Origin: Gammaproteobacteria bacterium
GTDB lineage: Bacteria; Pseudomonadota; Gammaproteobacteria; SZUA-229
Direction of reading: 5' to 3'
NCBI GenBank assembly: GCA_029882215.1
Contig: JAOULC010000008.1
Coordinates: 1 to 64,000 of the forward strand
DNA: 64,000 nt
The notes beneath the pieces are model-generated. The model did no database searches and had not been told where the DNA came from. It was given only the letters and a program-made list of their open reading frames with translations. Shown one piece after another: positions 47,652 to 52,389 of the stretch (the stretch's first letter is position 1; every line of letters starts with the position of its first letter). A program made the position numbers and the translations under genes.

Positions 47652-48456
47652 ATGAAGTGGGTTGAACCTAAATATTCGAAAGAGAAAGTAAGAAAGGCCG
47701 GGATCTGCTTGTTGAAAGATGATATAAAAAGCAATGAGTTTCAAGAGGCTATTCCTGTATTTTACAATTGGAGATCTTCACATGCATTTCCAATGCAGAT
47801 CATGCTTAATCTTTTACGAAAAATACAATAAAAATTGATAAAAACTCACTAGTTGTTCAGAGACTTAAACGTGTGCGTTCAATCTACAATAAATTGATAC
47901 GTGAAAAAAATATGAGTCTTAGTCGTATGCAAGATATTGTCGGCTGCGAGCAGTTGTAAGCGATGTAAGACGAGTCAAAAAGATTTGTTGCGGCCTAAAA
48001 AGAAGCAGGACAAAAAATATACTTTATAAAGAAAGAGATTATATAAAATTTCCTAAAGAGTCTGGATATAGAGGTGTTCACTTAATATACAAACACAATG
48101 GGCAAAAAGATAAATTCAAAGGAATGTTTGTAGAATTGCAAATTAGAAGCAAGATTCAACATTCATGGGCTACTGCTGTTGAGGTTGTCGGAGCCTTTAC
48201 AAAACAGGCGCTTAAGGCGAGTGCTGGTGACCCCAGATGGTTAGACTTTTTCAAATACACAAGTGTTGAATTCTCAAAACTTGAGAATTGTGTAATTGAT
48301 CAAAATGAAGAAAAGAATAAAGACGACCAAAGTAAGGGTGTTGTACTGGTTTTAGCTGCTTCAGTTCGAGACTTAAAGAAAGCATATCCTAACTATTTTG
48401 CTGATACTGATGATTTTGAAAAATACGTTGCACAGGTTTACAAGGCGAATAATTAA
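47652..48456 (+). pseudogene. Decayed RelA/SpoT-domain (p)ppGpp synthetase-like gene
   Basis: Three frames together spell one protein. Frame 1 from ATG 47652: MKWVEPKYSKEKVRKAG...FYNWRSSHAFPMQ, stop at 47829. Frame 2 from about 47834: NSLVVQRLKRVRSIYNKL...SLSRMQDIVGC, stop near 47958. Frame 3 from 47950: AVVSDVRRVKKI...SGYRGVHLIYKHNG, then ELQIRSKIQHSWATAVEVVG, to 48456. The RGVHL and ELQIR-H-WA motifs are those of the RelA/SpoT synthetase domain. Both breaks fit one-base deletions. The C-terminal part looks shortened between CVIDQNEEK and VVLVLAASVRDLKKAYPNYF. The gene is most likely dead. Stand-alone members include toxins and alarmone synthetases. Confidence 0.82.
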
Positions 48457-50778: not shown

Positions 50779-52389
50779 TTATTGTGTAGTTTTCTTTGAG
50801 CTTTTTACGATGATGATGATACGGTTACCCGGATAAATTAAATCCGGATTTTTGATGTTGCTCAGGTGTGCGAGTTGTTTGTATTTCAACGGGTCACGGA
50901 TATAGCGTTTAGCGATATGCCATAATGTATCGCCTTTGACCACTATGTGAGTGACCTGTCGTGAAGTGTTCTTTGCTTTTGCTGCAAGCGGTTTTTCTTC
51001 ATTAGTGTTTTTTTCTACAGGCTTAATAGTGTATACCACATCCGCTGTTTCTTTAATTTGTGCAGTCATTAGCGATGGCTTTTTATCTGCTTCAGGTGGT
51101 GTGAACTCGAGTTTAGCGTCCGGGTCATCAATAATGATGGTAATCGTGTTTTTTGTTGGGGTGATGGCCGCATCATGAGTGGCCTGATTTATTGCGGTGT
51201 CTTCAAGCGCTTCGATGCTGTTGCTTGCAGGCGTTGTGGTATCAGCATCTGTCAAATCAACCGCTTCATGGCGACTTAATGTTTGATCAGTCACAGGAGG
51301 GCTTAAGCCGGTATCAGCAGCCCGAGAAGCCGGTAGTGTGTTATGTTGCAGAGCTGTTTTACTTTGGTAGCGGCTTGCAGTTGAGGGCGTTTGAAAAAAA
51401 ATGTAATAACCTGTTAAAGGTGTAGCAATAATCAGGGTCAATACCAAAAAGATAGTAAACCAGCCGGAGGATTGATTGCTTTCATTTGTCTTGTCTTGTC
51501 TAACAGTACCTGACAAATAGTTAGCGGGCACCTTTACATTTGTCTGAGTGTTGATCAGGCGAGCTGAGTCATTTTTAGGGGTTGCTGGAACTGGCGTTTT
51601 TGTTATGGCAGATGGCGAGTAAACCGCTTTGCTGGGTGTTGTTGTATGTTTATGGGTGTTGTGTTTTATCGTCGGGGTATGGTCTTGAGTTTTAGTTTTT
51701 TGCAATAAAACTGGTCTGCTTTTAGTCGTCATGTTCAGGCTGCGGTCTGTTAGTTGACGGCTTGTTTTAGTTGTCGGTTGTAGCTTGGCAGTCACTGCCT
51801 TTGAACCGGTTGTTATCTTGCTATGTGTCGGTTCATTGCGGACATGCTCTGTGGGTTTAGCGCTATTGCTAAGCACTGGCGGATTTTGAGTAACGCTTTG
51901 TTTGCTGGTAGTCACATCAGCATGAGTGGATTCATTTATGAACTGATTAATGAAGAGGTGTGCACGGGTATTAACCTGAGCATTGCTGAGGGCTTCAAAT
52001 CCGGTTTTAAAGACCAGCTGGCTTTTATAAAGCAGCACACCATCAAATAATTCACGCGGGCATTCAGCCGGTAGAGGCTGCCATGTGCCCTGATTCGAAC
52101 TGATGATTTCCTGAATACTATCAACCCAGAAGCCCAGTAGACGATTATTGATTTCTGCGATGAGGATTTTACCGCGTTGCCCGGTTGGTAAGTTAAATTT
52201 TGTTCTGACATCATAAACGGCCACGGCTCTCTTTGTGTGTGTGAAAAGTCCCGGGCGATAGCTATTGCTGCCGGGAATAGCGGTGATATGAGCCGGTGGT
52301 TCAATAACAAGGTAGACACTGTTGGCGTCAACACAGCAAGGGACTGGTCCGATTTTAAATATTACAAAATTACTATTGGCTAAAGCCAT
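50779..52389 (-). CDS. CheW-like domain, transmembrane helix and LysM fusion protein
   Basis: A 536-aa protein of unusual build. Residues about 5-132 form a CheW-like domain (FVIFKIGPVPCCVDANSVYLVIEP, RAVAVYDVRTKFNLP, ILIAEINNRLLGFWVDSIQEI). A Thr/Pro/Lys-rich linker (about 133-308) leads to one membrane helix (310-332). A second acidic, low-complexity linker follows, then a C-terminal LysM domain (480-528: THIVVKGDTLWHIAKRYIRDP...NPDLIYPGNRI). The predicted topology is CheW in the cytoplasm and LysM binding peptidoglycan in the periplasm. It may anchor a chemosensory or pilus-linked assembly to the cell wall. No chemotaxis genes are near. Compare FimV, which has LysM and membrane helix in the opposite order. 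Confidence 0.8.
   Translation of the reverse strand: MALANSNFVIFKIGPVPCCVDANSVYLVIEPPAHITAIPGSNSYRPGLFTHTKRAVAVYDVRTKFNLPTGQRGKILIAEINNRLLGFWVDSIQEIISSNQGTWQPLPAECPRELFDGVLLYKSQLVFKTGFEALSNAQVNTRAHLFINQFINESTHADVTTSKQSVTQNPPVLSNSAKPTEHVRNEPTHSKITTGSKAVTAKLQPTTKTSRQLTDRSLNMTTKSRPVLLQKTKTQDHTPTIKHNTHKHTTTPSKAVYSPSAITKTPVPATPKNDSARLINTQTNVKVPANYLSGTVRQDKTNESNQSSGWFTIFLVLTLIIATPLTGYYIFFQTPSTASRYQSKTALQHNTLPASRAADTGLSPPVTDQTLSRHEAVDLTDADTTTPASNSIEALEDTAINQATHDAAITPTKNTITIIIDDPDAKLEFTPPEADKKPSLMTAQIKETADVVYTIKPVEKNTNEEKPLAAKAKNTSRQVTHIVVKGDTLWHIAKRYIRDPLKYKQLAHLSNIKNPDLIYPGNRIIIIVKSSKKTTQ

Follow-up and report, generated by a model that had tools for sequence, protein, structure and literature searches.

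A conserved family of CheW proteins joined through a membrane helix to a LysM domain, with a possible role as wall-anchored localisation adaptors

The DNA analysed here (the window: 64,000 nucleotides, positions 1 to 64,000 of contig JAOULC010000008.1 in the gammaproteobacterial assembly GCA_029882215.1) encodes a protein of 536 amino acids, with an ATG start in the list of open reading frames, in which a CheW domain is joined through one membrane helix to a LysM domain (Table 1). The domains, their predicted fold, the single helix, the conservation of the protein and the loss of a pair of signalling residues are established. The architecture is real and maintained, and it marks a conserved and apparently undescribed protein family; no description of a CheW-LysM protein was found in open-access papers. 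We propose, with a probability of roughly 0.47, that the protein is a ParP-like localisation adaptor that carries its own cell-wall anchor and tethers a chemosensory complex. We infer its orientation with the N-terminus inside, its binding to peptidoglycan and to CheA, CheW or MCPs, the tethering and its location in the cell. The cytoplasmic domain with the CheW fold would dock into, or beside, the CheA-P5/CheW layer of the complex. From there, a flexible linker of roughly 150 residues and then the membrane helix would lead to a periplasmic module of hairpin and LysM, which probably binds peptidoglycan. With CheW docked at one end and LysM bound to the wall at the other, the complex would thus be tethered to the wall, and the signal from receptor to kinase would not be carried by the CheW-LysM protein. 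To our knowledge, few systems of array placement are understood; ParC/ParP/HubP is one of them. If the tether reading is true, array placement would be achieved by one protein and could be tested by deleting a single gene or its LysM domain.

Table 1. Features of the CheW-LysM gene and the regions of its product, in window positions.
Feature	Position	Strand	Evidence
Whole CheW-TM-LysM gene	50779..52389	-	ORF list; orthologues in three congeneric genomes, with this architecture and at the same rpsF-side locus
CheW domain, predicted cytoplasmic, residues 7-156 (Pfam 8-125)	51922..52371	-	Pfam, AF2, VIA-align
Low-complexity linker, predicted cytoplasmic, residues 157-308	51466..51921	-	pLDDT <50; charge count
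Single membrane helix, residues 309-331	51397..51465	-	AF2 helix; hydrophobic 19-mer
Low-complexity linker, predicted periplasmic, residues 332-404	51178..51396	-	pLDDT mostly <50
Conserved beta-hairpin, predicted periplasmic, residues 405-421	51127..51177	-	pLDDT ~90; motif in most homologues
LysM domain, residues 481-526	50812..50949	-	Pfam E=3.4e-11; most conserved block of the family

CheW and LysM are the only Pfam matches of the protein, and each bit score is about twice the curated cut-off (CheW, PF01584, E=1e-11, 45.1 bits against 23.5; LysM, PF01476, 43.3 bits against 20.9). An AlphaFold2 model built with 40 homologues gives a pLDDT of about 95 for residues 7-140 of the CheW domain and is confident in the LysM region (474-531), and pLDDT is below 50 over long stretches within 158-304 and 341-402. 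The modelled helix is the only strongly hydrophobic 19-mer of the protein and has a counterpart in 40/40 homologues. Foldseek matched the N-terminus of the predicted model to solved CheW proteins of E. coli, Thermotoga and Thermoanaerobacter (E about 1e-10), and VIA-align superposed it on solved CheW structures with Z 17-18 over 133-135 residues; the double SH3-like CheW fold is therefore present in the predicted N-terminal domain. The sequence-only reading of this DNA had recognised an N-terminal CheW and a C-terminal LysM domain, a single membrane helix at 310-332 and long low-complexity linkers, and had called for a domain search of the two ends. Both profiles were matched above cut-off, the modelled helix is shifted by one residue, and the linkers appear as stretches of low pLDDT on both sides of it. 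The objection that the N-terminus has no CheW fold is excluded, because the structure comparison, made with a predicted model, places it on solved CheWs.

The description in that reading did not include the conserved periplasmic beta-hairpin before the LysM domain, which has a pLDDT of about 90 in both models. Its consensus, YxAxIxxDxxxITIxL, is common to most homologues, and the LysM domain of the family has the consensus KGDTLWxIAKRYVxNPFxYPELARLSxIKNPDLIYPG. When the periplasmic model was compared with solved structures by Foldseek, there was no match at E<0.001, and a Kbp fusion (Z 2.1) is among the weak ones. By sequence, the best solved-structure matches of the LysM domain are 6ve2 (E=6e-7) and TsaP (3jc8). 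TsaP, the LysM protein of the type IV pilus secretin, shares the motif GDTLW...NPxLIYPGD; in 6ve2 and 3jc8, however, LysM lies near the N-terminus (residues 31-78 and 67-130), and we know of no CheW domain in these chains.

Both Pfam domains were present in 10/10 and then in 40/40 homologues, and every one of the 40 aligned rows has a hydrophobic helix between CheW and LysM. The gene occurs in 4/4 genomes of the genus, one of which has two copies. Further relatives come from additional genera of the GTDB family, from many Gammaproteobacteria MAGs (including some labelled Chromatiales or Ectothiorhodospiraceae) and from a few MAGs labelled Desulfobacterales or Deltaproteobacteria, which gives the phylogenetic spread that had been asked for. 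The retrieved loci contain 55 ORFs with both domains (some loci counted twice). Of 369 genomes drawn evenly from the class, a match at E<=1e-25 was obtained in 18, and in one of these (G088) it covered the LysM half only. Relatives on contigs were detected with an alignment query, whereas a single-protein query of contigs gave none, and searches of plasmids and IMG/VR gave no relative. The source assembly is fragmented (144 contigs), which could have produced an assembly chimera or a chance fusion. This explanation is rejected, with a negligible probability left to it, because homologues share the architecture: dozens of independent genomes have it, and three congeners have it at the same locus.

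The CheW domain may lie inside and the LysM domain outside, and a charge bias points weakly in the same direction. The linker next to CheW is rich in lysine and arginine (22 K+R versus 9 D+E in 160 amino acids), and by a positive-inside test the CheW-side linker is more positive than the LysM-side linker in 33/40 members. Several members break this trend with strongly acidic cytoplasmic linkers; these include the copy beside chpA (one gene, found in both L069 and L042) and copies with a LysM gene next downstream (L071, L104, L107).

An alignment of the family with E. coli CheW and with the coupling proteins encoded in the source genome shows which CheW residues are kept (E. coli numbering). 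Glu38 occurs in 0/40 members, Arg62 in 4/40 and both together in 0/40, whereas both residues are retained in the flagellar CheW, CheV, PilI and ChpC of the same genome. Position 33 in the receptor groove, which by our own alignment matches ParP L209, is Ser, Ala or Thr in 39/40, and this argues against the tether reading. Most members keep hydrophobic residues at 36 and 39, Asp70 and Arg72, the CheA-contact beta-4/beta-5 region is nearly gap-free across the family, and the domain has family-specific conserved motifs (GPVxCC, PPGSxxxxPGIF, FWVDEI and GWGxLP). In E. coli CheW the Arg62Ala substitution has essentially no effect on the affinity for receptor and CheA, yet chemotaxis is impaired, and the Glu38-Arg62 salt bridge matters for function, not for assembly (Ortega et al., PMC3828127). 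The pair therefore serves signalling and not assembly, so that its loss would fit a tether that only binds. Substitutions of Glu38 do lower receptor binding, and absolute conservation of Glu38 and Arg62 was reported for the F7 (E. coli) class only (PMC3828127); the pair is thus not universal among CheWs. On the simplest reading, the CheW domain would serve for binding and would have ceased to relay a signal. Of the earlier suggestion of a chemosensory-type adaptor, the CheW fold stands; continued coupling of receptor to CheA is not supported by the residue pair (0/40) or by the position of most copies, away from chemosensory genes, and fixation to the wall and a polar or septal placement are predictions.

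Two other roles can be weighed against these residues. Firstly, the LysM domain could read the state of peptidoglycan and feed CheA through CheW, replacing a receptor. The protein spans from wall to cytoplasm and has a small conserved hairpin before LysM, as such a sensor might; still, about 150 disordered residues separate CheW from the helix, Pfam scans of the protein and of 40 homologues found no HAMP domain, and the signalling pair is lost, so that this role seems improbable. Secondly, a decoy or spacer could compete with normal CheW for CheA or the receptor and limit array size near the wall. A CheA-contact region kept without its signalling pair would suit it, but the strong conservation of LysM would be needless, and we consider a decoy even less probable than a wall sensor. 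In a tree of CheW domains, the CheW-LysM rows are separated from the couplers of the flagellar, Pil-Chp and CheV types. The ParP-like domain falls on the CheW-LysM side, but its branch has a length of 4.8 and a long-branch warning applies. By profile score, ParP (21.6 bits) ranks below ordinary CheWs (41-43 bits). With these scores and the long branch, kinship with ParP is not established.

The proposed tether resembles ParP of Vibrio, which likewise pairs a CheW-like domain with a long flexible linker and has a localisation element at the far end of that linker. In the source genome, the ParP-like protein also lacks Glu38 and Arg62 (Gly38, His62), yet Vibrio ParP interacts with both MCPs and CheA and serves as an array tether (PMC5706961), an analogy that would favour the tether reading. 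Unlike the protein described here, ParP is soluble and is anchored at the pole via ParC/HubP; it has an N-terminal ParC-binding part and a C-terminal CheW-like AIF domain, and its gene lies between parC and cheW. Here CheW is N-terminal, the anchor is a membrane helix and a LysM domain in the same chain, and the locus is beside rpsF-rplI-dnaB. FimV/HubP also uses one membrane helix to join a periplasmic LysM to cytoplasmic partner-binding parts. Its LysM (FimV_N/FimV_core), however, is N-terminal and its C-terminus has TPRs, whereas here the order is CheW-helix-LysM, opposite to FimV as had been noticed earlier, the cytoplasmic part is CheW, there is no TPR among the Pfam matches, and FimV_core is not among the NCBIfam matches. 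Polar targeting by HubP has LysM as its necessary and sufficient element (PMC8789113), and the CheW-LysM protein may work like ParP combined with a HubP anchor. The coupling proteins CheW, PilI, ChpC and CheV share the CheW fold, but the CheW-LysM protein is membrane-anchored, it lacks in 40/40 members the Glu38-Arg62 pair that coupling CheWs of the F7 class need for signalling, and Pfam scans of the protein and 40 homologues found no response-regulator receiver domain such as CheV combines with CheW. Lastly, FrzB of Myxococcus is a divergent CheW-like protein that organises arrays and whose contact surfaces are altered. It is soluble, its beta-4/beta-5 strands have been lost, and it fails to bind its CheA (PMC6952110); the CheW-LysM family, by its alignment, keeps the CheW fold and these CheA-contact strands, which would argue for the tether reading.

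The tether reading is also supported by association with chemosensory systems. At least one CheA-type dimerisation domain was found in 32/32 carrier genomes examined (17 within the GTDB family, fragments at contig ends counted, and 15 more). Flagella are enriched among carriers, in comparisons that ignore phylogeny: FliM was found in 16/18 carriers versus 174/351 non-carriers of the class sample (p=0.001), in 13/13 versus 158/301 among high-quality genomes (p=0.0003), and in 14/17 versus 13/37 within the family (p=0.003). PilT occurs in all genomes of the family, and pili therefore do not discriminate carriers. A tight tie to one chemosensory system is rejected, since ChpA was not found in carriers G105 and G347, nor FliM in the near-complete carriers G012 and G065 (98% complete). 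The common denominator of carriers is a CheA, not one particular system, and the lack of a universal system counts against the tether reading. A further point against it is that the genome already has other placement proteins. The source genome has its own FimV/HubP as a separate gene (contig C46), and a ParC-like ATPase and a ParP-like CheW protein (L058:5239-6974, contig C30) in a flagellar cluster of the order cheA-cheB-motAB-parC-parP-cheW; the host therefore also has the known array-placement system.

The gene neighbourhood points elsewhere. Within the genus, the CheW-LysM gene is divergent from rpsF and upstream of rplI and dnaB. At nine loci in other genera an acyltransferase gene lies 0-19 bp upstream on the same strand, and at 17 loci the gene follows ksgA in an lptD-surA-pdxA-ksgA / apaG-apaH-folA neighbourhood, where a small unnamed gene usually comes next and comFB often follows. 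ApaG and ComFB were named from Pfam matches; lptD, surA, pdxA, ksgA, apaH and folA are what we take the other sequences to be. A CheA system adjoins the CheW-LysM gene in only 1/61 loci, where pilJ-chpA-chpC precedes the second copy of a congener (L042:1-10514) by about 1.2 kb and a uracil-DNA-glycosylase-like gene stands in the gap; the source genome has a pilJ-chpA-chpC cluster without such a copy. An MCP gene lies within the retrieved stretch in 5/61 loci, and in three of these it is the convergent next gene. The copy beside pilJ-chpA-chpC and the three loci that end against an MCP gene favour the tether reading, and the rarity of both arrangements, with ksgA and the acyltransferase gene as the commonest neighbours, speaks against it. 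Because most copies adjoin envelope or housekeeping genes and not che genes, the neighbourhood suggests envelope-linked, probably constitutive expression, with a chemosensory partner only occasionally. Scans for promoters and terminators gave no matches above chance.

These neighbours would favour the main and serious rival, which we hold to be possible although less probable than the tether: the CheW fold may have been reused for a non-chemosensory partner, as a scaffold, anchored in the wall, for proteins of envelope growth, lipids or division, and the conserved surface formed by the four family motifs would bind that partner. The acyltransferase gene is co-directional and nearly abutting, Glu38, Arg62 and the groove residue at 33 were lost while new positions became conserved, and the same helix-hairpin-LysM module carries unrelated cytoplasmic domains. 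Such reuse sits less well with a CheA in every carrier genome examined, the enrichment of flagella, the retained CheA-contact strands and a ParP-like array protein that can itself lose the pair. If the CheW domain does serve another partner, it would show a core chemotaxis fold put to new use in envelope organisation. Under both readings, the analysis defines a conserved and apparently undescribed family whose signatures can be searched for.

The helix-hairpin-LysM module also stands behind other cytoplasmic heads. In L096:6405-8420, L102:2202-4349 and L105:2624-4678 it follows 7-8 cytoplasmic repeats like IDDLINEIL (0.01 expected in shuffles), which presumably resemble the CheY-binding peptides of CheZ and FliM. 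In L096 and L105, the gene for the repeat protein is flanked by an MltF-like gene on one side and a gene for a short HAMP-like protein on the other. A third head type, a small domain in proteins whose N-terminal part had no Pfam match, is encoded directly downstream of the CheW-LysM genes with acidic linkers (L071:9819-11135, L104:8266-9288, L107:9018-10226). A bolder version of the tether reading, which we regard as rather unlikely, would place a wall-bolted coupling-type CheW among modular helix-hairpin-LysM anchors with interchangeable heads (CheW, tandem CheZ/FliM-like peptides resembling CheY-binding ones, and the third small domain), pinning several pathway parts independently of HubP/ParC. 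If the likeness to CheY-binding peptides is true, the wall would hold several chemosensory parts, each by an anchor of its own.

Some nearby genes are worth recording. Directly downstream of one CheW-LysM gene, L111:2865-4451 encodes a FimV-like protein of 528 amino acids (FimV_N, FimV_core) that ends soon after its membrane helix and had no TPR match. Adjoining the CheW-LysM gene, L065:9402-9890 and similar genes at 15 other loci encode a small conserved protein with the motif DTPVHSxLHExxHYICM, for which there was no Pfam or NCBIfam match. On contig C41 of the source genome, L056:2455-3354 encodes an orphan helix-LysM protein with no recognisable N-terminal head; it adjoins an IS200-type transposase and is perhaps a broken relative. 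Within the window itself, an ORF of 110 amino acids at 48124-48456 reads like a fragment of a RelA/SpoT-type protein.
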